NCBI RefSeq assembly: GCF_009905375.1
Contig: NC_133647.1
Span: 173,024,790-173,088,789 of the forward strand
Length of the DNA stretch: 64,000 nt
Origin: Apium graveolens
Lineage: Eukaryota > Streptophyta > Magnoliopsida > Apiales > Apiaceae
Reading direction: 5' to 3'
Each line of letters starts with the position of its first letter. The stretch's first letter is position 1. The notes beneath the pieces are model-generated. The model was not told the origin of the DNA, made no database searches, and was given only the letters and a program-made list of their open reading frames with translations. Of this stretch, positions 46,419 through 64,000 are shown piece after piece. The translations under genes were made by a program, and so were the position numbers.

Positions 46419-47757
46419 TGTTAGTGTTTGTGCCCTAAAGACAACACTATGATATTTTAGTTTAAGATATTTGGATTATTAATATTTATATTCAATCGAT
46501 TATTTCTTTTACAATTTATTAATTCTTAATTTACTGCGATATAAATGTTAGATTAATAAATGTCCTTGGAATATGATATACAATTCTATATCTCTAAATA
46601 CGTGACTTAGAAATGAGATTATGAGAATAGTATAAATATTCCTAAAGGTCCCTGGTCGAGTTTATTAAAGGGGACAATAATAATGCATTAAGACTAGTAT
46701 ATTTTTTCACTGATGATCACATCTCATTGAGCATAGGTATGATGATACTAAAGCCAAAATATAGGCACATGTATTAGATACATGATGCTGGAATGACCCA
46801 TTATGAGATACTACATGTTAGTGTCATAAGTTATTCTCACAGTGATAATGATGTAATGGTCCTTAGACATGAAGTTATTATATTTCTATACGAGAATTAA
46901 TATATTTTGATTCCATTAAAAGTTATCCTTGACCATGTAATGATAAAAGTGGACATTGGGTATACTATAAATCGTATGAGAAATATGAATGATCTAGATG
47001 GGATTTAACCCTCTTATTTTAAGAGTGATATTATTGGCCTCTTGTGTAAGCTATACTATGAAATGCGTGGTCATGCTCAAATGTTGATTTGATTTGATAG
47101 TCTGCTCATTGATCAAGGAAATTTGGATTAAACTAAGATGAGGATTACACATTACATGCCTCTAGTTTAATCTATAATATTTGGTTAAAGAGATTATACT
47201 ATATTATACATTATCACGAAAGGTTTAATCGAATCACCGATTTAATTATTATTACTTGGGTAGCAATGATGTATTACTAGATGCCGCTCATTATTTATAA
47301 TTTTAATATGACATATTAAAATTATTGCTAACGTAATAATAATCTACAGGGTCACACACAAAGAATGCTTAAAGGAGAAATAATTTAAATTATGAATTTA
47401 AATTAAATAAGTAATTTGTTTTATTTATGATATTAATTAAGTATGACATAATTAATTAAATAAATAAAATAGAGAAATTACTTAAACTGATTTCGAAATA
47501 AGTTATTAATTAATTAAATATGACTTAATTAAATAATAAATTGGGATTTCAGATTAGTATTAATTATAATTAGATTATAATTAGAAAACTCATTATTTTC
47601 TCTATATAACCTCTTTGAGGGCTGATTTATAAAAAAAGAGGATACATGATTTACAAAACCCTAGCCGTTCAAGGAGAAAGATGAAGAGAGGTAGAGATGG
47701 AGTTTCCGGGTGCTAGCACACATCAATCCTTCAAGAAAAGTGTTCGTGTGGATATTG
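46419..47757 (+). mobile_element. Ty1/copia-type LTR, right end not defined
   Basis: Starts TGTTAGTGTTTGTGCCCT, a beginning I associate with a common plant copia LTR. The right part (47600-47740) has CTCTATATAACC and a leader-like stretch with AAACCCTAGCCGTTC and GGGTGCTAGCACACATC. At about 47758 it passes directly into integrase of Sirevirus C, without PBS or gag. The join is therefore a deletion or recombination boundary. Confidence 0.5.
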
Positions 47758-47761
47758 TATC

Positions 47762-48463
47762 CTCATTTGTGAAGAGAATGGGATTATGCATGAGTTTTCT
47801 GTAGCTATAACTCCACAAAAAAATGGAGTGGTGGAAAGGAAAAACAGATTTCTTATTGAAGCTGCAAGAACAATGCTAGAAGAATCAAAGTTACCAACAT
47901 ATTTTTGGGCTGAAGCTGTGAATACTGCATGCTACACTCAGAATATTTCTTTGATTAATCAAGCAAAATGCATGACACCCTACCAATTGTTCAAGAATAG
48001 GAAGCCAACTCTAAATTTCTTACATGTCTTTGGCTGCAAATGCTATATCTTAAGGAATCAAACTGATCAACATGGAAAGTTTGATGCCAAAGCAGGTAGG
48101 AATTTTTGTTGGATATGCTGTGGGAAAAGCATATAGAGTCTATAATCTAAGAACCAACATTGTTATAGAATATGTACATGTTTTGTTTGATGATAAAAAG
48201 ATTGTAGGACTGCAAGATGAAAATTTCCATGAGAGCCTCAAATTCGATAATGTTGAGATGGTTAGTGATGACAATGATGATGAAAGTGATCAAGAAATAG
48301 TGGCTAAGGACAATGCAGAAAAATCTACATCTAATGAAGCACATAACTCAACATATGTCGAGTTACATAATACTTCATCCGTTGGTAGAGAATCAGCTTC
48401 ATCCATCGAAATACAAAGTGCATCATCCGTCGGAACAATAAGAGAAGCTGAGAGTCAAAATAG
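47762..48463 (+). pseudogene. Integrase C-terminal half of Sirevirus C
   Basis: Reads CEENGIMHEF, then QKNGVVERKNR with the catalytic Glu, PTYFWAEAVNTACYTQN and HVFGCKCYILRN. A frameshift near 48095 moves GIFVGYAVGKAYRVYNLRT into the next frame. The tail is acidic (SDDNDDESDQE) and then has SSV/SSI triplets encoded by CATCCGTCG-like words (48370-48435). The two catalytic Asp residues lie upstream of the break at 47758 and are lost. Confidence 0.9.
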
Positions 48464-48513
48464 ATGACTTATAGAAAGAACCCCATCTTTAAATCAAAGA
48501 TCCACAAACTCAG

Positions 48514-50224
48514 GTGGAGATTCTTATAATTAAAACTCAGTCACACATCAAGACAACAATGAGGCCTGTTCATCTAGAGCTAATCTACCACAACAGAGCT
48601 AATCTTGAGCTCATTATTGGTGTTGCATCTTCTAGAGTTCAAGCAAGGAAAGCAACTCAAGAAGAATGTCTGTATAGCAACTTTCTTTCTAAGGAAGAAC
48701 CAAAGAAGGTAGAAGAAGCTCTGTTGGATCCTGATTGGGTTTTAGCTATGCGGGAAGAGCTAAACTAATTTGAAAGGAACAAGGTATGGAAGCTGGTACC
48801 CAAGCCTAAAGGAAAGAATCAAATTAACACCAAGTGGGTATTCAGAAACAAGATGGATGAAAATGGCATAGTTGTCAGGAACAAAGCTAGATTGGTTGCT
48901 AAGGGCTACTGTCAACAAGAAGGAATAGATTTTGATGAAAATTTTGCTCCTGTTGCAAGACTTGAAGCCATCAGAATTTTCTTAGCCTATGCAGCACATG
49001 CCAATTTCAAAGTCTATCAAATGGATGTCAAAAGTGCCATTCTGAATGGAGATTTGGAGGAGGAAGTCTATGTCAGTCAGCCTCCTGGTTTTGAAGGTCC
49101 AAATTTTCCAGAATATGTCTACTATCTTTTGAAAGCACTTTATGGATTGAAGCAAGCACCTAGAGCCTGGTATGATACTTTGTCAAAATTTCTCTTAGAA
49201 AATCACTTCACAAGAGGTACTGTTGATAAAACTTTATTCTTTAGAAATGTTATTGGCTCTAGTATACTTGTTCAAATTTATGTAGATGATATTATATTTG
49301 GCTCTATAGATGAAAAACTTTGCAAAAAGTTTGCCAAATTGATGCAAAGTAAGTATGAAATAAGCCTGATGGGAGAACTAACTTACTTTCTTGGCTTACA
49401 AGTTAAGCAAGCTAGTGATGGAATATTTATTATTCAAACCAAATATATTTATGATCTTTTAAAGAAGTTTGATCTAATGGATTGCACATCTGTAAAAACT
49501 CCCATGACCCCACTGCAACTTAACTTGAATTAAACACTACTGAAAAGTATATGGATATTTCAAGCTATAGAGGCATGGTTGGCTCACTTTTGTACTTAAC
49601 AGCTAGTAGACCAGATATAATGTTTGCTACTTGTCTTTGTGCTAGATTTTAGGCTGATCCTAGAGAATCTCACTTAGTAGTTATTAAGAAAATTTTCAGA
49701 TGTCTCAAGAGAATACCAAAACTTGGCATTTGGTACCCTAGAGATTGTGGTTTTGATCTAACTGATTATTCAGATGCAGATTATGCAGGTTGTAAAATAG
49801 ATAAAAAAGTACAACATGAACCTGTCAATTTTTAGGAAACAAGCTTGTGTCCTGGTTCAGTAAAAAGTAAAATTCAGTTTCTACTTCTACAACTGAAGCT
49901 GAATATATTGCTGCTGGTAGTTGTTGTGCACAGATTCTATGGATGAAAAACCAACTGTTGGACTATGGACTACATGTGGACAGAATTCCTATTTTCTGTG
50001 ATAACAAAAGTGCAATTACCATCACTAAAAATCCAGTACAGTATTCAAGAACAAAGCACATAGACATCAAGTACCACTTCATTAGGGAACATGTGATGAA
50101 TGGAACTATGGAACTTCATTTTGTTCCAAGTGAGAAGCAGCTTGCAGATATCTTTACCAAGCCACTTGATGAATCCACCTTTTCTAGGTTGGTAAGTGAG
50201 TTAGGTATGCTTATTTATTCTTAA
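48514..50224 (+). pseudogene. Reverse transcriptase and RNase H of Sirevirus C
   Basis: One nonsense codon at 48766-48768 (LN*FERN; TAA where CAA is usual) separates the pre-RT part from a clean 226-aa RT (48853-49533): [47 protein letters not shown], the catalytic YVDDI and [16 protein letters not shown] frameshift near 49530 and a TAG in ARF*ADP (near 49650) follow. RNase H at 49750-50224 keeps SDADYAGC and STTEAEYIAA, but has a small deletion near 49808. The end ADIFTKPLDESTF is in frame to the TAA at 50222. It is better preserved than Sirevirus A but inactive. Confidence 0.92.
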
Positions 50225-50329: not shown

Positions 50330-50334
50330 CTCAT
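50330..50334. repeat. Target duplication CTCAT, left of the Tat element
   Basis: CTCAT before the LTR start matches CTCAT at 63884-63888 after the right LTR end. This proves the element boundaries. Confidence 0.93.
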
Positions 50335-51536
50335 TATTGACGGAGGAATTTGGGAGCAACAAAGTCTGAGGTTCGTAGCCGGAAACAAGATCTGTGACGG
50401 TGGTTCTTTATCGGAAACATGAACAGTAATTGGTGGATTCGATGAACAGTGTTTGGTGGTGGTGATTATTGGTGGATGAGATTGCTTAGGGTTAGTGGTG
50501 GCTCCTTTGCGCTCTCACTTCTGACCCCTTGTAATTTGCCTACATATCCCTAATTATAGGGAATCAAGCCAACATAGTTCTTGGGGAACAAGAAACCTAA
50601 TGGGCTTAGATCTCTTGTCCTGAGGCCCAGTAGGAAACCTACTGGAAACCGTCTTCAACTAGCTTTAGGAATGTCCGCCGATGAGGCCCAACCACAAAGG
50701 TCCAAGGCTCATCCGCGGCTTCGAGATTTCACAGATAAGGCATCTTCCTGGCCAAGGATAACCCTCCGCTACCAGCTGTTTCTCTAATCCGTGGACGCAG
50801 GTATAGCCGTGGTTCACCCCAAATATTGGACGAATCCTTGTCCCCCGGATAAGGAGCCCCTACCAGATTACAGGACAAGTGATCCCAAGCATTTGGGTGC
50901 AAAGTACAAGATACTCCAAAGTCTCCCAACGAGGACACCCGCTAACTACAGATACAGAGCTCCCAAAGCACACACCAGAATTTACCCTACATCCCCAATA
51001 AGGACACTCATTGACTACAGGAGGAGGCCTTCTATCTAAGCATACCCTTGAAGGTCTCTGACCACAAACACCGCCTTCCTGTAGATGCACTACAGGGATG
51101 AGTTCTTCAACAGAGTACCTGCATCAAATAGGTTAGTAATAATAATCTTCGTTTTCCTTGAATCTGCCGAAGAACTCGTCCAAGTAACCTTGTCAAGACT
51201 CTTCTCTAGCCATTCTTTGACTTAGGACGCGCCCTAAGTCTTTTCAGGGCAAAATCAGTCAACCCTGTTAGGAATCCTCCTGCTTTATCCTTATAATCAA
51301 CAGGGCGTGCTTCCTCATTCTAATGAGGGCGCGCCATAACATCTTGCATGCATGACTTTTCCATTAAGCATTCATAACTCAAGGCGCGTTTTTACCCCAT
51401 ATAAGGCGCGCCTTCTTTCCTTTTATAAGAGAAATTCATCTCCTCCGTTCCTTAATTTTAGGCACATGTACCTCCATTTTGACCATTTTACCAGTCTTAA
51501 TCTGAGTATTGTTTATACCAATTTTTAGGCATAACA
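50335..51536 (-). mobile_element. 3' LTR of the Tat element
   Basis: 1202 bp, the same length as the other LTR. In plus sense it starts TATTGACGG where the partner has TGTTGACAG (G to A) and ends GGGCATAACA. It holds GGCGCGCC at 51328 and 51405 and the 18-bp near-palindrome CTTAGGACGCGCCCTAAG near 51221. Frames within it are LTR, not genes. Confidence 0.95.
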
Positions 51537-51551
51537 ACTACCCCCCAAATT
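51537..51551 (-). promoter_or_regulatory. Polypurine tract of the Tat element
   Basis: AATTTGGGGGGTAGT on the minus strand, touching the 3' LTR start. Confidence 0.88.
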
Positions 51552-52662
51552 CCATATGTCATTGGAGATGGGATTGGAATTTTTACTCATCTTTATCAAA
51601 ATTTGTATAAACGTATCTATCAATATTATTTTTCAGGGCTCACCCTTAACAGGGCGTGCTTTTAAAGTTCCAAAATTCCAAACTACTGTGATAGTCATAT
51701 AAGGGGCGCCTTCATGAGGGCGCGGCCCGAGAATTTTAAACGGTTCGAAAATATTTCCTTGTTTTTAGGGAATCGTGCCCGACGTGATTGATTTGACAGT
51801 TGTCATTTTCAGCTATAAATACCAGTCACACCCTTTCTTTTTACTTTTTACTTTTACTCTCTCTCTCACTTTACTCTTCTTCAAACAGTAACCACACCAG
51901 CGGGATAAAAATCTGTTCAGAATCGGCCTTAATCTCCACCATCTCTTCAACCTTTCTTGTTAATCTTCTTCTCTAATCGAAAAATTATGTAAAGTTCTTT
52001 ACATTTCTGAATTTCATCAAGTAAATCACAGTGCATATCATATTGTCTATTCGTCTTCCTGTTCTTGAATATGTATGTTTTTGTGTGTATATATGTGTAT
52101 ATATTGTATGCATTCAGACTTGGCAATGTAGATCCTAAATCATAGGATGTTGAATTTCAAATTTGTGTTTTTAAGAATCTTAACCGTCAATATTTCTTCA
52201 CCCAGCATATAACCATATCCGCTTTAGAGTTCAACAATTCAGGGCATGCCCTCTAATTTTTTCTCCCAAGAAAGATGCCAGACTTTAGACACAAAACATA
52301 ACTCAGGATACACCTTGTTTCTTGATAGGGCGTGACTTACCTAAGTAACTCTTCTATCGTAATAGGCTTCATCCTTCTAGGACACGCCTTCCTAGCATAG
52401 GACATGCCTTAAGAGGATTAATATGCATTACTTTTAATACATGAGCGCACTATTTTCTTACGCCTTCCACTACTTGTTTGTTTTTTTGATATTTTTCTTC
52501 TCCCATCCTTTCGAATTGGGCGCGCCCTCAATGATTCTTTGGTTTTCTTGACAACTGGAAGACGAGGGCGCATCCTCTCCCTTTCATCCTTTTAAAGATT
52601 TTTGCACTAAGTTAGGGATCTACTCTCCTCCACCTATCTCTTTCGAACCAGACTTCCCAGAC
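51552..52662. other. 3' internal region of the Tat element, no gene, GGCGCGCC-rich
   Basis: No frame of note. Many GGCGCGCC-type words (51652, 51701, 51716, 52243, 52330, 52380, 52401, 52519, 52564). A CT-rich run at 51840-51870, followed by ACAGTAACCACACCAGCGG, could be the 5' leader of the antisense transcript that contains the frame from 52663 on. TATAAATACC at 51815 would be its TATA box. Confidence 0.5.
51815..51823 (+). promoter_or_regulatory. Candidate TATA box for the antisense gene of the Tat element
   Basis: TATAAATAC on the plus strand, about 850 bp before the first antisense frame and just before a CT-rich leader. Placed by motif and context only. Confidence 0.4.
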
Positions 52663-55262
52663 GTGCACAGAACTCCCCACTTTTTGGAGCAAGAGGCGCA
52701 CCTTGTTGAAGAATTCAAAATTAGCGACATACTGGCAGCATCATCGGATGACTCTCAAGACCATGTCACTTTAAGCCAAAGGAGAGGAAAACAGAAGCTG
52801 ATCCAGAAAGAGAGATTCCCAGCTCCTGTCAGCACAGAGTTAGATGACGACGATTGGTTGGAAAGTTTGAATGTGGACAGGTACATGGGCATAGAGATCA
52901 GAGTAAATGTTGGGGCATGACCTTCTAAAGTCACTTACAGGGCTGTTTCCCCAAGCCTTTCCCAATATCAATCTCAAAGCGTGCCCACTCCTTAACAATC
53001 AGAGGGCGCGTCTGAAGAGAACCCATCGCCTCTCTGTGACGAAATGAACTTCTTTGACGAAGATACCCTTCAATTCTCCACTTCCCCAGAACCTTCTTCA
53101 ATCCCTTTCCAACACTGGGAGGTTTCTGACAGTGAGTTAGAATTTGATTGGGATGAGTTTGAGCCGTGCAATGAGGCTGTGAAGAAACGTTTTAGGAAAG
53201 AGCATGGAAAACTATTCTGTGTGGGCCTTCCCTCAGCTTGTTCTGATGAGCAACTAGAGTGGCTTATGGAATACTATGACATGGAAGGTATCTGAGCGTG
53301 CCCTCTTAGCATGATGCGGCCCCATATTTTCAATTATGGGAGAAATTTCAGAATTCCTAGGATGGTAACTAGCCCTAAGATGGTTTCATTAGGTGTGGCC
53401 GTGCCCTTACACCCTTTGCTCAAAGAAGTGATCGAGCTCTATGATGTGGCTCCACTCCAACTTTCTCCCAACAATTATAAATTTTTCCTTGCCCTATTCA
53501 TTCTCTACACAGATTTGGGCTTCCCTCAACCCTCAATGGCCGAGGTTAGCTATTTTTTTAGCCTAAGGAAGTCTGACCATGGGTACTACTATCTGGTTGC
53601 GGACAAACAACATAATAAGAAAGGCTTCTCTTCTGGAAAACTCAGCCATGAGAAAGGCTGGAAGGAAAATTTCTTCTATCTATATGATGTTCCCAGGCTA
53701 AGAATTAGATTCAACACATTTCCAAGTAAGGGCGCGCCTCCTTAGTCCTCTTTTTCTCATCTTGTATTTATTTCCTATATCTCATAATATTGCATTTACT
53801 CAGACAAGCCAGTGGTGAGGACACTCGAGGGCACGCCCAAAAGTCGAGCAGAAGCCCTCCTTAGAGTGGCCACTGAGAGATGGAATCTGAAGACATTGGT
53901 CACTAGGACCAATCTGATGCTTGTTGGAATCCTTTCTGACCAAGTGGGAGTAAAGTGTAAATTTATAAGATTTAGAAAAAGGTGTCCCTGTTTCTCGTGC
54001 TATTGACTTAAATAGTGATGAAGAAGGTGTTGAAGAGGATGAGGAAATGGAAGACAGCTCTCTTCAGGGCGAGATTCCCTCAGGTTTGACCATTTTAGGT
54101 CTTAACAGCACGCCTTCCGTTATTGGCGCGTCTTTGTTGCTTAATAAAAACTTTGTTCCACATAAAATTTCTTGTAAGTTTTTACTTCTTGCATATTATA
54201 TTATTGATTCAACATCACTTAATCAGGGCGCACCCTTTACCTGGGGCCTTATACCTTTGACTGTAGCTTTATAGATTACACATTCATACCTATACATTTC
54301 GTATATGTTTTTATTTTTGTTGCATCTCTGTGTATTGTATATTTACAAACCTTCATTGATAAATTTGATACTTTTGGTGCGCCTCATTGCAATGTTTATT
54401 AATATTTACCATGTCTTATGCAGAGATGGCTCCTCCCAGAATTCCTAAGTCATTCGGGGCGCGTCGCAGCGACAAACCCAAGCCTAAATCGAGGAAAGAT
54501 ATTTCTACGGCCCAAACATAAACTCCTGTCTCCCAAACTGCTCCTGTTCCAAAAAGGCCAATCATTGATCTGACCAAAAAATAAGGCGCGCCCAAGAAGC
54601 CCAGGACCGATGGTACGCCTTCAGGATCATCTGCTGCTTTGAATTCCCTTGGTGCTTTGGGTTCCCTCCACGTTACAGATGAGGAGGTGGAGCAGTGGTA
54701 AGCCATGAGCTTGGAGGATGCCACGAGGGCTTCCATTAAGGCATCCTGCCAACTGTTCATCCACTCCAATCAGATGGTGGACAAGCTTTTTTAGGAGAAG
54801 GCACGCCTTGAGAGGCTGCAAGGTGATAATAACATTTTGAAGAACACTTTGAAGGATAAAGACTTTCTTCATGCTAAAGATATCAAGGCCAAGGATTCTG
54901 AAATCTCCTTCCTCAAGGGTGAGGTGGCAAACTCAACATCCCAGCTTGAAATAGCCAATAAGAAAGCTGAATCTCTCCATACAGAGATAGCTAAGGAAAA
55001 GGAAAGGATTGAATACCTCGAGGATCAAGAGAGGAATGGCTGGCTGGAGGAGAGGAGGATCAAAGCAGATGACGCTTTCGCCAACAGTTTTAATTTTTAC
55101 AGGATTGGGTTCGTGGTGAACGATCCTGAGTACACCTTTGAAAAGTTTGGTGAAGAAACTGTTGCGGAGATGGCAGAGTTCAAGAAAGAGTTTTCCAAGG
55201 AGATCCAAGCACAAAGGATTGAGCTCGGGTTGGAGGAGGCTACTCTTTTATCTGCATTGTGA
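52663..55262 (+). pseudogene. Antisense spliced gene of the Tat element (PF04195-like, then coiled coil)
   Basis: Plus-strand, opposite to gag-pol. Pieces: 52663-52920 (acidic), 53044-53725 (one TGA at 53293 where CGA is likely; then VPLHPLLKEVIELYDVAPLQ, the 'putative gypsy type transposon' PF04195-like block), 53804-54173 and 54426-55262. A GT..AG intron at 53726-53803 (78 bp) keeps the frame at phase 1. A second at 54174-54423 (250 bp) has a good GTAAGT donor but joins to TAG, which a C-to-T change of CAG would explain. The last exon is Lys/Glu-rich coiled coil (HAKDIKAKDSEISFLKGEVA) and ends FEKFGEETVAEMAEFKKEF, with four in-frame TAA/TAG. Function is unknown; such antisense frames are known from Tat elements. 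Confidence 0.75.
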
Positions 55263-56020
55263 CTATCGCTCAGTTTCATTTATCTTTATTTTTCTTATCC
55301 AGTAGTTCTTTTGCAAAATCCTTTTAAGTACCAATCAATGGCGCGCCCTGATGTATAAGACTTATCTTAAAACATTCTTTTCAAGGGTAAAACTATCAGG
55401 GCGCCTCTACCTTTAGGGCGCGCCTTGTTTTGTGTAGATTCTTGCCTTAGTTTTTCAACCACACACCTTTATCCTTTTGACGAGATTTGCTAAGTGTGTA
55501 GAATTTTTAGGGCACGTCCTTTTATAGAGGCGTGTTTTCGCATCCACGAATTAACAATTTTTCAACTGGGCGTGCCTTATCATAGGGCGCGCCTCTGGTT
55601 TCTAACATATTTTCTTAGCAAATTTTACAACTTCTGGTATAGAAGGCATATCCCCTAGTATAATAATGGAGTTTTGCTGTCATATCATGGATATTTTCTG
55701 TTAATGCATCATAATTTTTTTTCATATTATGGATTTTGTTATTAGGGCACGCCCTAACTCTTTCTTAAAGTTTATATGCCAAGCAACCAAAGCACTTTTG
55801 AATCAACTTTTCCTTTTTATTGAAAATGCACTCTAGTGTAAAAATTACACCAGTCCTATGGCTACTATGCTCTGTGGGGAAGTTATTTGAAAATTTTATC
55901 CGTCTGCTAGTTCCAAAGTTCGTAGTCATGTATACTACCCCCTAGGCTAGGAGGAATTTATTTTCTACTAGTCTATTATATATGAATTAGTCATAAAAAT
56001 GAGGGGGCCAAAGCCAAACC
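55263..56020. other. Spacer between antisense gene and integrase ends, GGCGCGCC-rich
   Basis: No gene. It separates the converging ends of integrase (minus) and the antisense gene (plus) and would contain both 3' ends. It has three exact GGCGCGCC (55340, 55417, 55586) and at least five derivatives. Confidence 0.7.
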
Positions 56021-57376
56021 CTACTGATAATACTTTCGTAGATGCTCCGCATTCCAAGCCCGAGGAATAAGCTTGCCATCTAATCTTCCAAGCGATAAGT
56101 TCCTTTCCAAAGTATAGCTTTGATCTTGTAAGGTCCCTCCCAGTTAGCTCCAAGCACTCCATGTTGAGCTATTTTGGTGTTCGGCATGACTTTTCGCAAC
56201 ATAAGATCTTCCATCTTGTATGACATGGACTTTACCTTCTTATTAAAATACCTCGCAATTCTCTACTGATGTGCAGCGAGCTTCAATTGAGAGTTCATTA
56301 TGGCTTCGTCTAGCAAATTCAAATGGAGCCTTTGGTTAACTTCTGCATCCTCCTCAACAAACAAGTCCCTTCGTAGGGATCCGGATCCTACTTCCACGAG
56401 AACCATAGCCTCATAACCATAAGTCAGCAAAAATGGGGACTCTCCTGTAGTTGATCTAGGAGTTGTGTTATAAGACCAAAGGACCATGGGCATATCCTCT
56501 GGCCAATCCCCCTTCTTCTCTTCCAGCTTAGCCATTAAAGTATGCTCAATGATTTTGTTTATAGCTTCTGTCTGACCATTGCTTTGCGGGTGATAGACCG
56601 CGGAAAAATCTTTCTTGATTTTCAAGTCTTCACAAAGCTTCCTTAGCTCTTTACTGTCAAACTGCTTCCCATTGTCCGAGATGAGTTTGTATGGAATATC
56701 GAACCTGTAGACTATGGAATTGAAAATGAAGTCCTTTATTTTCTTTGTTGTGATCGTGGCCAGTTGCATGGCTTCCGCCCATTTAGTAAAGTAATCAACA
56801 GCCACCATGGCATATTTCACACCCCCTTTGCTTTGGGAAACTTTCCAATGAGATCGATCCCCCACATGGCAAAAGGCCAAGGACTTGCCAATGAAGTAAT
56901 AGACGTTGCCGGGACATTGGAATAAATAGCGAACCGCTGGCAGCGGTCACAAGCCCGAAGAAACTTGAAGGCATCTTCTTTCATAGTTGGCCAGTAATAT
57001 CCTTGTCTGAGGAATTTTAATGCCAACGAACCACCCCCCGAGTGATTGCCACAAATCCCTTCGTGCACCTCCCCGAGGATATAATTTCCTTCTTCCGAGT
57101 CCACGCAGCATAACAGTGGTTGGTTAACCCCTCTCTTATACAATACCCATAATATTCAACGTCCTTTGCAGCCTTGTAGCGAAGGCGTCGAGCCTGTAAC
57201 TTGTCTTCTGGAAAAGCTCCCATTCGAATATAGTTATGAATGGGGGTCATCCAATTTTCTCGCAGGATCTCCTGTGTCTGGAATATCCCTACTTCTGGAA
57301 TACTTGGGATTTCTTGGATTCCCAAAGGAATCTGCCCAAGTTGGACGCTGTCCATTTGTGACCCCATCTTTGCCAA
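56021..57376 (-). pseudogene. Integrase of the Tat element
   Basis: From 57376: linker, then the zinc-binding HEGICGNHSG...CDRCQ (HHCC complete) at 56900-57100, core with VDYFTKWAEA (first Asp), LISDNGKQF (second Asp) and NGQTEAINKIIEH (Glu). After a TAG at 56260-56262 (AAHQ*RIARYF, CAG expected) the C-terminal part continues in frame (VLGANWEGPYKI, AWNAEHLRKYY) to TAG at 56021. Frameshifts near 57130 and 56830 split it. All catalytic residues are present, so decay is by few events. Confidence 0.92.
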
Positions 57377-59313
57377 GGCATCTGCATTACTATTTTTTCC
57401 TTTGAAACACCTTCTAGCCTGGCACTTCCAAACTTTTCCAATAGAAGCTGCGTATATCTCATATACAACTCTGTCCGAGGTCCCCGGGCTTGGAAACCTC
57501 CGTTGACTTGGTTTACAACTAACTCAGAGTCACTCCGAGCAATCAAGTTCACAACCCTCACTTCCAGAGCTATTTTCAATCCATTGATCAATGCTTCATA
57601 CTCAGCATCATTGTTAGTGACATAAAATTTGAAGTGGATGGCACTCATCAAATGATGCCCTTCCGGGGTGATTAAGACAATCCCGGCACCTGCTCTGTTA
57701 TTATTCACATCCCTATCAACATGCAAGATCCACCAAGGGTGTGGGAACTCTTCTCTCATGTCAACAGGAGGATTTCCTTGTGAGGAAGGTTCTGCCAATA
57801 TTGTAGCCTTATTGTCTACTTCAAAATCAAACTCAAGTATTAAATCAGCCAACGCCTGTCCCTTGATTGCCGTACGAGGACAATATTCCAAATCAAATTG
57901 TCCCAGCTCTATCGCCCACTTTAACATTCTTCCCGATGATTCAGGTTTATGCAGAATATGTCGGAGTGGATAAGCGGTGCGAACCTCTATTCGGTGAGCT
58001 TGGTAATATGGTCTTAACTTTCGTGTCGCAAGGATAAGGGCGTATACCAATTTCTCCATACTGGTATATCTAGTCTCCGCATCTAACAACCTTTTGCTCA
58101 CATAGTACACGGGAGATTGGTGGCTCGCTTCCTCCTTTACCAACACCGTGCTGACGGAGTATTCAGAAACTGCCAAGTAAAGAATCAACGTTTCTCCCTC
58201 TTCTGGCTTGGCCAACATAGGAGGATTTCCCAACTGCTCTTTGATTTTCAGAAAAGCCTCTTCACAATCTGAGGTCCATACGAAATCCTTCCTCATCCCT
58301 TTGATTGCCTTGAAGAATTCTTTACACCTATCTGACGACTTTGAGACAAATCGATTTACAGCCGCAATCCTTCCCGTCAGGCTCTATACTTGCTTAACAC
58401 TGGTGGGCGATTTCTTGTCCAACAGAGCTTTGATTTTTTCCAGGTTCGCCTCAATCCCTCGGTGGTTAACCATGAATCCCAAGAATTTTCCTGATTCCAT
58501 GCCGAATACACACTTCTGAGGATTTAGCTTCATCCTATATTTTCTCAGAATATGGAACATCTCAGCTAAGTCTGCTATGTGGTCTTCCTCCCTTTTAGAT
58601 TTTACAAGCATATCGTCCACGTATACCTCCATCGTCTTCCCAATCTGCCTCTTAAATATTTTGTTTACCAATCTTTGATAAGTGGCCCCAGCGTTGATCA
58701 GACCAAACGACATCCCAATGTAACAATAGAGTCGTCTATCAGTGATAAAAGAGGTGTGCTCTTGGTCAGGCTCATACATGGGAATTTGATTATACCCGGA
58801 GTATGCATCCATGAAACTTAGCAAGGCATGTCCTGCCATGACATCGACCAACTGGTCAATTCTTGGTAAAGGGAAGCTATCTTTTGGGCACGCTTTGTTC
58901 AGATCGGTGAAATCCATACATGTTCTCCACTTGCCGTTAGGTTTTCTTACTAACACTGGGTTTTCCAGCCAATCTGGGTAGAAAGATTCCCTGATTAGTC
59001 CGATATCCAAGAGTCTATCTACTTCTTCTGCCAAGGCTACTGCTCTTTCTCCACTTATGGCCCTCCGCTTTTGCCTGACCCCCTTATGCTTAGGATCAAT
59101 GTTCAAACAATGGCACATAACTTTCGGGTCAATTCCCACCATATCAGAATGGTTCCATGCAAATACATCAAGGTTTGCCAAGAGAAATATTGAAAGCCCC
59201 TCTTTTAATCTTGGTGCCAACTGGGATCCAATTCTCAGGACTTTACTTGGATCTTTTTCATCGACAGGGATTTTAATTGTGTCTTCCGCTTGCCCCATTT
59301 TTTCAGTTGGCAT
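57289..59313 (-). pseudogene. RT and double RNase H of the Tat element
   Basis: RT (58384-59313): FTDLNKACPKDSFPLPRID, LSFMDAYSGYNQIPM, catalytic YVDDMLVKS near residue 235, NPQKCVFGMESGKFLGF. An in-frame TAG at 58384 (VKQV*SLTGRIAA, CAG expected) is the only break before the RNase H part (57289-58296). This first shows the gypsy RNase H with YYVSKRLLDAETRY and PLRHILHKPESSGR. It then shows a second, plant RNase H-like domain WILHVDRD, NNDAEYEALINGLKIAL, IARSDSELVVNQV, typical of the Tat/Ogre branch. A frameshift near 57380 joins it to the integrase frame. Confidence 0.93.
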
Positions 59314-59337
59314 TGGTATTCGCGGATCTAAGTCGAG

Positions 59338-59634
59338 CTAATCACGATCCTCATCATTTTGCAGAGAAGGCGCATCCTCTTGAAGAGAAGCATCAACTTC
59401 TTTAGAAGGCGCGCCCTGTATCACAGGGGCATCAACTTCCTTTAAATTTTCCGAAGATAAGGGCGCGCCCTCAGGGAGAGGGGCATCTACCTTATGTACA
59501 TCTTTCCCAAGATTTTGTAAAACATCAAATCTTCCTTTGATCCGTTCCCCATTGAAGTCTGCTTGGACTATGTCATTCGGGGGTTTTTCTTCCTCCAATA
59601 TTTCAACTCTAATTGTGTCTTCTAAAAACAACAT
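59338..59634 (-). CDS. Acidic linker with GAP/DAP repeats between protease and RT
   Basis: A 98-aa frame leading towards RT. Its first half (TIRVEILEEEKPPNDIVQADF, RFDVLQNLGKDVH) is usual before Tat RT. The second half is VDAPLPEGAPLSSENLKEVD, then VIQGAPSKEVDASLQEDAPS. The GAP and DAP triplets are encoded by GGCGCGCC at 59408 and 59462 and relatives (59370). This shows the dispersed DNA word lying inside a coding linker in frame, without a stop. Confidence 0.75.
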   Translation of the reverse strand: MLFLEDTIRVEILEEEKPPNDIVQADFNGERIKGRFDVLQNLGKDVHKVDAPLPEGAPLSSENLKEVDAPVIQGAPSKEVDASLQEDAPSLQNDEDRD

Positions 59635-59706
59635 TGATGGAGGTAATTCAGTGGGGCACTCGTTTTCTTTCTCGACATAGTAATGGACTCGAATTTCCTT
59701 GATCGG

Positions 59707-60368
59707 CTATTCAATACTTTTTTCTCGCTCATCATCCGATGCATCTTTGCTGTGGTCATGCTTTCTCCTAAAGCCCCTCATCGCTTGCCTGCAGCATTCC
59801 CGAGAGTCATATTGAGAGCCCTTTATGCTGCCCACACCATTTGGGATTGGAAATTTGATGGTGAGGTGGTGGATCGAAGTGATGACCCTCATTTCCCTAA
59901 GAAAAGGTCGCCCTAGCACAACGTTGTGGGATGACTCCTGATTTAGAACCTTGAACTTGAGCATCTTTGTCACGAACATCGGACTTCCCCCAAGATACAC
60001 GGCAATCGAATTGATCCCATGACTCGAACTCCCGCGCCAGAGAAACCATAGACCCAAGAATCTTCTCCCGACATATCCCGATCAGGTAGCCCCATCTTCT
60101 TTAAGGTGCTGTAGTAGAGGATGTTTGCTGAGCTTCCGTTGTCTACGAAGGCTCTATGGATATTCTTGGTCCCGATCTGGATGGAAATGACCAGTGCGCC
60201 ATTGTGGGGGTGATGTACCCACTGGGCATCCGCTTCTCTGAAGGTGATGTCCAGGGACTCACCCTTAAATACTTTGGGTGGCCGAGTTTCCACCCTATGA
60301 ATGTCGGTGAGAGGTCTGAACTGGGCTTCCCTTGCATACCTTACCAAGGCTCTGTTACTACATTCCAT
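59707..60368 (-). pseudogene. Aspartic protease region of the Tat element
   Basis: 60368 downward: RPPKVFKGESLDITF and then RAFVDNGSSANILYYSTLKKMGL, the Tat-type protease active site (D-x-G-S-S-A-x-I-L). A frameshift near 60010 moves SPMFVTKMLKFKVLNQ and NVVLGRPFLREMRVI (usual C-terminal protease block) into the frame 59707-60057. It continues to a short basic segment before the acidic linker. Confidence 0.9.
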
Positions 60369-60392
60369 CCCAGGATCTCCTCCGTATATTGC

Positions 60393-62501
60393 TCAGATGC
60401 TGCCATCCCTGGCAAACTTATTTTCCTCCAGAGCTTCTTTGTTTGATTCTCGAAGGGTTCGCCCTCCTTCTTCCTTTACTCTGTCAGTGCTATCCTTGTG
60501 CCTCCTTACTTCCTTAAGCACCCATTCGCCAAGATATCCTTCCTTGATAAGTGCCTCGATCTCATCCTTTAGTTGCCGACACTCATGTGTGTTGTGTCCG
60601 GATGACTCATGGTATTCACAATACTTCTTCTTGTCTTTACATTGCCAAGATGATAGAGCCTCAGGTTTTCTAAACAGTCCTCTCTTCTTGTTTACCTCAA
60701 ATATATGCTCAATAGACGCGACCAAAGGCGTATACCTGCTTGCTCTGTAGTCAAAGCTCGAGGAAGGGATCCATTCCCTCCTTGTGGTCGTGGCATTTAC
60801 TCGATTTGGGCTTCGGCTACTTCTTCTATACCTTGGGCTTGGAGATCTGTCTCTTTTTCTTGCTTTGCTTCTCTGACTTGCTTGCGAAGTTGCTTGTACC
60901 ACTGCCAGAGACTGCTCTATAGCTTTAAATGACTCTGCCAAAACAAAGACATCCGCTAGAGTGGCCGGGTCTTTTTCTTGTAAATATTTCCAGAAATCCA
61001 AGCCGATCCTTAGTTCTGCTATCAAAAAGCTTTTCAAAGCCTCGTCCGAAGCCCCTCTTACGCTGGTGGACTCAGCGTTGAATCTTTTAAAGTAGGATGT
61101 CAAAATTTCATTTTCCCTTTGCCTAACGTTGGCGAGAGTTGTAAGAGAGGGAGTATACCTCATGGCGACTTGGAACTTGGTCGGGAACAGGGTTTTCATT
61201 TATTCCCAGGAAGTGATTACTCCCGGTCCGAGCTTTTGAAACCATTGTTGGGCGCTCTCTCTAAAAGTCGCCGCCAAAAGCCGACATTGAGCCAAGTCCG
61301 GGACTTGATACACGTCCATCTCTATATTGAATTGACCCAGGAATTCCACAGGGTCTGAGCTTCCATGAAAACGGAGATCGCTAGTAGTGTTGCGATATCC
61401 GGCTGGTAGCTACGCCTCTCTTACTGCCACAGAGAATGGAGAAGGGATTTTGGCCGTGGCCGTTACTCTGCCTTTCAAGTGGTTAAGCAGCCTTTTCAGA
61501 TCGTCTACATTGAAGGTTCCCACAACTGGGATAGTTTGCATGTGAGGCTGTGGACCTTGGGGCTGAGGCGGAGGTACTTCTGCCTGATTTCCACATGGAG
61601 GAGCTTGTTGTTGGCTGGTGTTTTGGGCATCTTCGGGTATCACAATCACTTCTGGGTTTCGACCTTGATCTCCCCCAAGATTTTCTCCTCGACCTCGTCT
61701 CCGAGCCATCTCGTGATCATAATTTTCCAGATCCCTGTGATCATCATATTCGGCATAGCTATCGCTTTCTGCTCGGTTATACCAGCGGGTATCCCTGCAG
61801 CCGCGATAGTTGTCGCGGCGATATCCATCTAAGTCTCTACCTCGACCTCTGCCTCTTCCCCTCCATTGGGATCTCCTCCATCGATCACTTCCATATCCTC
61901 GGCCACACCGGTCCAACGATTCAAGGGGAGGAGCTCTCTCATGATCGCGGTGCCGCTCCTGATTCTCATGGGGATTCAGGGGCACACGCGTTGTATCATG
62001 GGGCGTCACATCTCCGCGATCAACCTCCTTTTTCCACTCTAGCAACAACATCCTGAGATCATCGTCGCCTAAGCGAATCCCCAAGCGATACTTTAAAGCC
62101 GTGAAGCATGGCTGCTCATTGTCCGGCATGGACTCAGCTTGCCGGCGTTCCTCGAGACTACGCCCAGATCAGTGTGGGTGAGTGGCCCCCCGGTTATCCG
62201 CCCACAGTATTTCTCGATCATCAACATCCTCTTCCAGAAGTTCGACGATTGGGGATACATCGTTGGAATAGTTCAGACATCGCGGGGTTATTGGCACACA
62301 CCCGCCTTCAGTTCGACCGCGACCGGCCAAGGCATCACTATCGGTTATGGGAGCCTTCCTGGGTGCGTGAGCAGTACAGTTATGGCGAAGGCCCCTTCTG
62401 GTCTTGTGTCGCTCCACGGTGCTTAGCCTCGAGTCGAAACCGTTCAGAGCATCTCCCATGCGATACAGCTGTTCCAACAAGTTAGCGTTGCTGATAAGCA
62501 C
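60393..62501 (-). pseudogene. Gag of the Tat element
   Basis: Three frames. 62169-62501 is the N-terminus (NANLLEQLYRMGDALNGFD). 61410-62129 is Arg/Gly/Asp-rich and hydrophilic (RGRGRGRDLDGYRRDN, a long insert), ending in FNVDDLKRLLNHLKG. 60393-61199 holds the Gag core end (MKTLFPTKFQVAMRY, LTSYFKRFNAEST, FLIAELRIGL), an Arg/Ser-rich stretch and the Cys-X2-His type knuckle YCEYHESSGHNTHECRQLK with LIKEGYLGEWV. The part between 61200 and 61399 (FNIEMDVYQVPDLAQCRLL, WFQKLGPGVI) is readable across a TAA at 61199-61201. The order and the knuckle type are those of Tat Gag. Confidence 0.88.
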
Positions 62502-62660
62502 AGGCGGATGACCCCCAACATCTTAAGTGGGCGATCAGTCATGGAACGTAGAGTTCATGGTGGTCATAGCCATGATCAGATTCTTCTTCAGAGCTTCCGT
62601 CATAAAAACTTCCATCATGGTATTAAGACATCTTTCCTCCTAGATGCAGATCTTGATTAG

Positions 62661-62681
62661 CCCCTCCTTCTAGCGCCAATT
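62661..62681 (-). promoter_or_regulatory. Candidate primer binding site of the Tat element
   Basis: On the minus strand TTGGCGCTAGAAGGAGGG begins 2 bp after the 5' LTR end. A TTGGCGC start is usual for Tat elements; I cannot name the priming tRNA with certainty. Confidence 0.7.
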
Positions 62682-63883
62682 TGTTGACAGAGGAATTTGG
62701 GAGCAACAAAGTCTGAAGTTCATAGCCGGAAACAAGATCTGTGACGGTGGTTCTTTGTCGGAAACATGAACGGTAATTGGTGGATTCGATGAACAGTGTT
62801 TGGTGGTGGTGATTATTGGTGGCTGAGATTGTTTAGGGTTAACGGTGGCTCCTTTGCGCTCTCACTTCTGACCCCTTTCAATTTGCCTACGTATCCCTAT
62901 TTATAGGGAATCAAGCCAACGTAGTTCTTGGGGAACAAGAAACCTAATGGGCTTAGATCTCTTGTCTCGAGGCCCAGTAGGAAACCTACTGGAAACCGTC
63001 TTCTACTAGCTTTAGGAATGTTCGCCGATAGGCCCAACCATAAAGGCCCAAGGCTCGTCCGCGGCTTCGAGACTTCACGGATAAGGCATCTCACTGGCCA
63101 AGGATAACCCTCTGCTACCAGCTGTTTCTCTAATCCGTGGACGCAGGTATAGCCGTGGTTTACCCCAAATGTTGGACGCATCCTTGTCCCCCGGATAAGG
63201 AGCCCCTACCAGATTACTGGACAAGTGATCCCAAGCTTTTGGGTGCAAAGTGTAGGATACTCCAAATTCTCCCAACGAGGACACCCGCTGACTACAGAGA
63301 CAGAGCTCCCAAAGCACACACCAGAATTTACCCCACATCCCCAATGAGGACACTCATTGATTACAGGAGGAGGCCTTCTGTCCAAGCATACCCCTGGAGG
63401 TCTCTGACCACGGACACCGCCTTCCTGTAGATGCACTGCAGGGAGGAGTTCTTCAATAGGGTACCTGCATCAAATAGGTTAGTAATAATAATCTCCGTCT
63501 TCCTTGAATCTGCCAAAGAACTCGTCCAAGTAACCTTGTCAAGACTCTTCTCTATCCATTCTTCGACTTAGGACGCGCCCTAAGTCTTTTCAGGGCAAAA
63601 TCAGTCAACCCTGTTAGGAATCCTCCAGCTTTATCCTTATAATTAACAGGGCACGCCTCCTCATTCTAATAAGGGCGCGCCATAACATCTTGCAGGCATG
63701 ACTTCTCCATTAAGCATTCATAACTCAAAACGCGTTCATTTCCCCATATAGGGCGCGCCTTCTTTCATTTTATAAGAGAAACCCATCTCCTCCGTTCCTT
63801 AATTTTAGGCACATGTACCTCCATTTTGACCATTTTACCAGTCTTAATCTGAATATTGTTTATACTAATTTTTGGGCATAACA
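62682..63883 (-). mobile_element. 5' LTR of the Tat element
   Basis: 1202 bp; plus-sense ends TGTTGACAG and GGGCATAACA. GGCGCGCC at 63674 and 63752 are the partners of 51328 and 51405. At 63650 GGCACGCC stands where the other LTR has GGCGTGCT (51303). Followed by CTCAT. Confidence 0.95.
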
Positions 63884-64000
63884 CTCATTATTCATTGAGT
63901 TTGATCTTCCTTCGAAATAGAATAGCTTAGTAAAAATCAATTACTTTTCTGGATTATTTTATACCCGACGGATAATTATTTTATCCTCATCCGTCGAATT
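63884..64000 (+). mobile_element. Sirevirus C continued, after the Tat insertion
   Basis: Starts with the second CTCAT and continues the AT-rich 3' region of Sirevirus C, with CCGACGGATAA and CATCCGTCG words at 63965-63998. Cut by the window end. Confidence 0.7.

Follow-up and report, generated by a model that had tools for sequence, protein, structure and literature searches.

A 12-bp palindrome that differs between related Retand/Tat-like retrotransposon families of Apium graveolens, with an antisense TRP28 protein as its candidate reader

The 64,000-nucleotide window of Apium graveolens contig NC_133647.1 (positions 173,024,790 to 173,088,789; coordinates below are those of the window) contains a long terminal repeat (LTR) retrotransposon of a Retand/Tat-like family (family A), in which copies of a 12-bp palindrome, AGGGCGCGCCCT, are kept in the unique 3′ (U3) region of the LTRs and in the 3′ region of the element. 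A dimeric protein that binds DNA is likely to recognise these copies, and its most probable identity is TRP28, a predicted product of the element's own antisense gene; a probability of roughly 0.5 is assigned to this reading. The strongest evidence is provided by a sister family (family B) carrying a changed palindrome, by the spacing of paired palindromes, and by the hypervariable spacers that separate the palindromes. A dimeric binder is predicted because half-site specificity appears to extend beyond CGCG, the change between the families is two-sided, pairs are spaced, and the sites persist amid diverged spacers.

Distribution of the palindrome in the window

The initial annotation of this DNA listed 12 exact copies of the word GGCGCGCC and estimated that fewer than 0.1 would be expected. 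All 12 coordinates were confirmed, no further exact copies were found in the window, and 100 dinucleotide shuffles gave a mean of 0.06 copies (largest 1). These words are the cores of AGGGCGCGCCCT, for which 200 shuffles were generated for each of three block sizes. At ≤2 mismatches, 23 sites were found in the window, every one within the element (shuffle means 0.23–0.28), and at ≤3 mismatches there were 37 sites, of which 35 lie within the element (shuffle means 2.9–3.2). At ≤4 mismatches, the excess is only ∼2.5-fold (60 versus 22–24), so that many of the two-step derivatives described in the initial annotation are individually indistinguishable from chance.

The enriched parts of the element are its LTRs and its 3′ half. 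With the pattern GGRCGCGYCC (≤2 mismatches), the 3′ half (5.9 kb) contains 28 sites, compared with a mean of 2.1 in shuffles. The counts are 7 for the 6.5 kb of gag-pol (shuffle mean 3.9) and 9 for the remaining 50 kb of the window (6.8). The supposed absence of the words from gag and the catalytic domains was nearly right: gag-pol contains the sites at 59406 and 59460 in the linker between protease and reverse transcriptase (RT), plus one site with ≤2 mismatches at 60454. Weaker sites at 53293 and 53396 (3 mismatches) are located in the TRP28 coding region, and coding sequence is thus not wholly avoided.

Hypervariable spacers in the U3 block

The U3 blocks of five family-A LTRs (the window 5′ LTR and loci L014, L008, L011, and L026) were compared in ten pairs. 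The window 3′ LTR and L010, in which the anchor is missing, were left out of the pair counts, and L003 is the same locus as L014. The identity of the LTR body is 0.875–0.906 in all ten pairs, whereas that of the spacers is 0.53–0.62 in nine of them, a range comparable with shuffled blocks (0.56–0.59); the tenth pair, L008/L026, shows a spacer identity of 0.93. The five blocks nevertheless contain 22 sites at ≤3 mismatches, against a shuffled mean of 0.22 (largest 2), and each retains between four and six palindromes whose positions are alike. The first site (≤4 mismatches) is located at block position 34–36 in all six LTRs compared, and further sites recur at approximately 109–113, 133–142, 184–196, and 208–222, with individual copies missing some of them. 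L011 has a site at position 88, L008 and L026 share a weak site at position 65, and palindromes are also present in the same block of L010. Other copies are enriched as well, at positions of which some are common to the copies and some vary. The motifs are more alike than the spacers in 7 of the 10 pairs, although the margin is slight for the window and L011 (0.62 versus 0.58).

A sister family with a changed palindrome

Family B is represented by three independent copies (L006, L027, and L031), about 70–85% alike in aligned stretches. L007, which duplicates L006 at 99.4% identity, was not counted; the duplicated stretch spans at least 9.2 kb, and its two copies lie ∼63 kb from each other on one contig. 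The TRP28 pieces of family B are 52–60% identical to that of the window. The recurrent word of this family is GACGCGTC (20 copies in L006 and 19 in L027), which lies within AGGACGCGTCCT. In L006, L027, and L031, the pattern GGRCGCGYCC (≤2 mismatches) occurs 49, 50, and 33 times, respectively, versus 1.4–3.0 in shuffled sequences.

The base beside CGCG is A in 74, 67, and 67% in family B and G in 48 and 62% in family A, and an AGG outside the core is common to both families. The AGG flank was found at 17/66 and 39/138 half-sites in family A, at 27/76, 27/94, and 21/52 in family B, and at 7/114 in the controls (eleven further loci from this genome, without the family-A locus L026). Three control loci contain one exact AGGGCGCGCCCT each.

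The distribution of the two forms within family B differs between coding and other sequences. In L006 and L027, G..C flanks the core at all five sites of the TRP28 exon and at none of the 94 sites outside it (61 have A..T and 33 are half-changed). L031 is less clean, with G..C in 3/4 exon sites and 3/29 sites outside. Two of the three exon positions in family B encode the peptides WARPL and GAPLHP, which are also found in family-A relatives. Because G..C is kept in the exon and these peptides are common to family A, the word of family A can be regarded as ancestral, and coding constraint probably preserved this old word in the TRP28 exon while the other sites were converted. The CpG core, which would be expected to decay faster, was retained across the change. 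A further lineage, L005 (TRP28 identity 41–49%), has mixed palindrome forms.

The words of both families are frequent in the 3.33-Gb assembly, where GGCGCGCC occurs 23,760 times (2,113 for the reversed word) and the exact 12-mer AGGACGCGTCCT 3,272 times (5 for its reverse). Exact GACGCGTC pairs at 12–40 bp number 1,671 (4 for the reversed pattern), and family-A pairs number 1,169 (60 reversed). A chance or compositional origin of the words in a GC-rich element, with which the modest excess at ≤4 mismatches would agree, is practically refuted by these controls, i.e. exact and near-exact counts exceeding those of shuffles, reversed-word counts of 5 and 4 against 3,272 and 1,671, and the low frequency of AGG flanks at the control loci (7/114).

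Two other arrays were observed among the loci. At L013:4679–4788, three GGCGCGCC words that lack the AGG flank lie 51 bp apart in a GC-rich tandem array, and part of the genome-wide GGCGCGCC count therefore comes from outside families A and B; the RT, RNase H, and integrase matches that adjoin this array are only 30–38% identical to those of the window. At L012:2322–2545, a CACGCGC cluster (13 of the 14 listed words within ∼220 bp) represents a separate CGCG-rich array.

Spacing, turnover, and conservation of sites

Family-B palindromes are often 18 bp apart, counted from start to start. Gaps of 17–20 bp between adjacent sites account for 18/48 gaps in L006, 19/49 in L027, and 8/32 in L031, compared with 1.1–1.8 expected for unphased sites, and these short spacers are mostly unlike from pair to pair. 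Genome-wide spacings were tallied for the first 50 pairs listed for each family, all on contig C1 and including related copies. Among the first 50 of the 1,671 GACGCGTC pairs, 25 are spaced at 18 bp, 6 at 19 bp, and 3 at 20 bp, followed by 10 at 36 bp, 2 at 37 bp, and 4 at 40 bp; several of the 36-bp pairs contain a decayed site midway. The first 50 of the 1,169 family-A pairs comprise 7 at 17 bp and 43 at 20–30 bp, including a few without the AGG flank, perhaps from other repeats. Pooling of eleven loci gave 30 pairs at 15–20 bp versus 7.5 with jittered sites (maximum 18), but this count was replaced by the per-family counts because L006 supplied most of the pairs.

A function at the RNA level, in which the self-complementary GC-rich words would serve in dimerisation or packaging of the element RNA, was considered. 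GCGCGC loops serve RNA dimerisation in some retroviruses, and the GCGCGC core resembles such a palindrome. However, hairpin matches between members of family-B pairs showed no excess complementarity (3.91 mismatches versus 3.68 for shuffled partners); a hairpin reading of the pairs was therefore rejected, and an RNA-level function appears very improbable.

Whole units have been gained or lost between copies. In the L006/L027 alignment, one 19-bp unit is present in only one copy and a double unit in one copy corresponds to a triple unit in the other, and the protease-RT linker contains three sites in the window and four in L009, three of which are 54 bp apart. These differences suggest that the sites have spread at least partly by local duplication. 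Template switching, one of three explanations proposed in the initial annotation, is not supported, since the two clear gains or losses involve local units of 18–19 bp and the linker units lie 54 bp apart, as local duplication predicts.

The same data could be explained by a non-functional 18-bp mini-repeat (the palindrome plus 6 bp) that spreads by slippage or conversion and then decays, families A and B being two homogenised versions. The turnover of whole units and the 54-bp linker units agree with this explanation, as do the slight likeness of pair members (3.09 mismatches versus 3.36 for shuffled partners, with 4.1% of shuffles as low) and the lack of co-variation between site halves. It is nevertheless improbable, because the spacers of family-B pairs mostly differ between pairs, the U3 sites persist in 7 of 10 pairs despite the loss of spacer similarity, family-A sites are mostly single, and in the L006/L027 comparison CpGs are better kept within sites than outside them. 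There, 148/166 CpGs were retained in sites versus 145/190 outside (146/174 versus 159/218 in the reverse direction), so that the suggestion of a methylation magnet is not supported either. Within family A, CpG retention is better in sites in four of the five distinct copies with aligned sites, L008 being the exception.

Among 81 family-A sites, 35 of the 41 changes in the CGCG core are C-to-T or G-to-A, whereas outer position 11 is altered in 40/81 sites, above every core position. Decay of CpGs was rejected as the sole source of the variants because position 11 varies more than the core and the change from A to B lies outside the CpG.

The element and its antisense gene

The element is oriented on the minus strand and is assigned to a Retand/Tat-like family by its layout, Pfam matches, and LTR pair. 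The two LTRs differ by 75 substitutions over 1,202 aligned bases (Kimura two-parameter distance 0.066), and their length of 1,199 bp is slightly over the range of 315–1,194 bp given in a survey of Retand elements (PMC11963269). RT, RNase H, and integrase are encoded on one strand between the LTRs (RVT_1, E = 1.2e-32; rve, E = 4.6e-13), with the RNase H piece assigned by position. The stretch from pol to the 3′ LTR is ∼4.7 kb (56262 down to 51537), within the 2.9–6.6 kb of the same survey (PMC11963269). An interrupted gene lies in this stretch, between integrase and the 3′ LTR, on the strand opposite to pol. One of its pieces has a sub-cut-off match to TRP28 (Transposase_28, PF04195), with an E value of 1.7e-4 and 22.2 bits. 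Ten relatives were found among predicted proteins, three of which have a precomputed PF04195 match. Features of the element are listed in Table 1. All six copies checked have the candidate antisense promoter word TATAAATA in the equivalent stretch, and their closest palindrome site lies 75–294 bp upstream of it. The protease-RT linker piece used as a protein query gave nothing at E ≤ 0.01, and a search of viral contigs with RT gave no match.

Table 1. Coordinates of the LTRs (limits approximate), antisense-gene pieces, candidate promoters, and palindrome sites of the window element
Feature	Position	Strand	Remarks
3′ LTR	50338..51536	−	Direct repeat from 50334; TG...CA ends at 50338 and 51536
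U3 palindrome block, 3′ LTR	51189..51434		Sites (≤4 mismatches) at block positions 35, 113, 137, 192, and 214; hypervariable spacers between
Site AGGACGCGCCCT	51224..51235		Within an imperfect 18-bp palindrome
Site AGGGCGCGCCAT	51326..51337		
Site AAGGCGCGCCTT	51403..51414		
Four sites (2–3 mismatches) in two close pairs, 51635/51651 and 51701/51717	51635..51728		Upstream of the antisense TATA box
TATAAATA, candidate antisense-gene promoter	51814..51821	+	Putative promoter function, from sequence
Sites 52241, 52517, and 52565 (≤2 mismatches)	52241..52576		Antisense leader and first coding piece
Antisense gene, N-terminal coding piece	52552..52920	+	One relative, P0011 (51% identity over 71%)
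Antisense gene, TRP28 piece	53296..53742	+	Sub-cut-off Pfam match and relatives; putative intron from GT...AG
Weak coding site in TRP28 piece	53396		Relatives read GAPLHP there
Site 53729	53729		Start of likely antisense-gene intron
Sites 53828, 54225, and 54583	53828..54594		In antisense gene
Antisense gene, C-terminal piece, perhaps coiled coil	54795..55262	+	Sub-threshold matches only, several to coiled-coil families
Sites 55338, 55415, 55509, 55584, and 55744	55338..55755		Between antisense gene and integrase 3′ end
Protease-RT linker sites 59367, 59406, and 59460	59367..59471		Read as ...DAP/GAP... repeats
5′ LTR	62685..63883	−	Direct repeat
TATAAATA, candidate LTR promoter	62898..62905	−	Putative function; U3 palindromes roughly 670–850 bp upstream
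U3 palindrome block, 5′ LTR	63535..63781		
5′ LTR sites 63570, 63648 (3 mismatches), 63672, and 63750	63570..63761		

At the site located at the start of the likely intron (53720–53742), the relatives P0001, P0002, and P0005 read GAP or DAP. This reading is absent from P0003, the relative with the lowest full-length similarity to the window, and the site may therefore be a younger gain. The sequences flanking the element, CTCATTAT (50330–50337 and 63884–63891), are identical over 8 bp; target duplications of Ty3 elements are usually 5 bp. Copia-like integrase and RT reading frames were recognised by eye immediately to the left of the element (47717–49533).

Interpretation

Recognition of the sites by a protein, the identity of this protein as TRP28, and its effect of keeping the element active are inferences. 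In the proposed mechanism, a dimer of the TRP28 protein, perhaps with a coiled coil, would bind the palindromes and keep the element active by opposing silencing or by driving the LTR and antisense promoters. The sites would multiply through local duplication, and the spacers would change fast, perhaps escaping small-RNA-directed methylation. Were the specificity of the protein to shift, the non-coding sites would be converted in turn, a course of events suggested by the contrast between the A and B palindromes. A broader and more tentative proposal, judged slightly less probable than even, is that each Retand family may have its own palindrome in phased dyads and its own antisense TRP28 reader, protein and sites being rewritten together, so that a family would drive or de-silence itself and not its relatives.

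The main alternative is that the words are sites for a host transcription factor, either of the CAMTA type that recognises CGCG boxes or another factor for GC-rich boxes, through which the LTR and antisense promoters would respond to a host signal. The core of the CAMTA CGCG box is VCGCGB, and both palindromes contain it. The two cores, GCGCGC and ACGCGT, share CGCG, the sites lie in U3 and 75–294 bp upstream of the antisense TATA box, and a CGCG box has been described in U3 of the tomato element Rider in the available part of PMC6762207. However, the flanking AGG and the change from A to B are outside VCGCGB, and neither this difference beside the same core nor the 17- to 20-bp gaps (18/48 and 19/49) are simply explained by one shared host factor. 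In addition, the 28, 49, and 50 sites in the 3′ halves of the window element, L006, and L027 also occur within and behind the antisense gene. A host factor is thus considered unlikely, though less so than the other alternatives. Of the three ideas in the initial annotation, recognition by a host or element protein has the best support, binding itself being a prediction.

Several observations weigh against binding by TRP28 or against functional sites in general. The TRP28 match of the window is below the Pfam cut-off (26.2 bits), no convincing relative of TRP28 was found among solved structures (best E = 0.039), and two AlphaFold models were unusably poor, with mean predicted local distance difference test values of 48.5 and 36.0. 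Family-A pairs are less strictly spaced than those of family B (17 and 20–30 bp). In 3 of the 10 U3 pairs, motif identity is not clearly above spacer identity (0.58/0.58 for L008/L011, 0.58/0.56 for L011/L026, and 0.88/0.93 for L008/L026), and the two halves of a site show no co-variation beyond composition (1.84 mismatches out of 6 versus 1.86 in shuffles). Non-CpG site positions have no clear advantage over the background (0.856 versus 0.821, and 0.816 versus 0.829 in the reverse direction). The third exon position in family B encodes a peptide unlike those of family-A relatives and need not be ancestral. The change from A to B is of the C-to-T type on both strands, and mutation of methylated non-CpG cytosines could contribute to it. 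Finally, the sample comprises few copies per family, all from one genome.

The broader proposal, if correct, would describe the first such self-recognition system in a retrotransposon, as far as the searched literature extends, and TRP28, an orphan domain, would gain a function; the open-licence literature, mostly at the level of listings, contained no account of these palindromes. If TRP28 does recognise the palindromes, the thousands of identical 12-bp palindromes across a 3.3-Gb genome would be explained, and family-specific motif codes for counter-silencing or self-activation would not be confined to DNA transposons but would extend to a retrotransposon.

Comparison with known systems

In the portion of the Retand survey available (PMC11963269, 2025), antisense TRP28 genes are reported in 97% of clusters; a program predicts that TRP28 binds DNA, and its function is called unknown, with only a regulatory role being suggested. 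The palindromes provide a concrete candidate target for such a role. The window element resembles the surveyed elements in its long region between pol and the 3′ LTR, its antisense gene with a putative TRP28 piece, and the presence of repeats in the same region. The repeats described there are family-specific tandem repeats, whereas the main text does not contain GGCGCGCC and has ‘palindrom’ only in a cited title (PMC11963269).

Two other plant systems share single features with the present one. Rider of tomato has a CGCG-cored element in U3, but it is one box among five predicted elements, and no dispersed, family-specific, or phased palindrome is described in the accessible text (PMC6762207). 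The portion of PMC6911290 available also connects plant LTR elements with palindromes, but these represent a weak palindromic preference at insertion sites and not words within the element.

The closest likeness is to VANC proteins of Arabidopsis VANDAL transposons, which bind family-specific short motifs in non-coding DNA, leading to demethylation, according to the sections available of PMC5735166 and PMC10398659. In these sections, a given transposon family is enriched in a short motif, found mostly in non-coding sequence, introns and upstream regions included; the motif differs between related families, the regions that contain it diverge fast, and motifs turn over with repeat units. The VANC motifs given there (YAGTATTAY, AGTTGTCC, and AGTTGTAC) are non-palindromic and arrayed in one orientation, whereas the motif described here, known from sequence, is an often paired palindrome of an LTR retrotransposon, with TRP28 as the candidate protein. 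The sister family, the pair spacing, and the hypervariable spacers had been missed in the initial annotation. Shared features are a motif enriched in the element, located mainly outside the main coding domains and differing between related families, and, in the few copies compared, rapid turnover of motif regions by gain and loss of repeats. Neither of the VANC domains, DUF1985 and DUF287, was found by Pfam in the five antisense-gene pieces scanned. Because of this result and because its carrier is a retrotransposon, VANDALs being DNA transposons, the system is not classed as VANC, but by analogy it may work like one.

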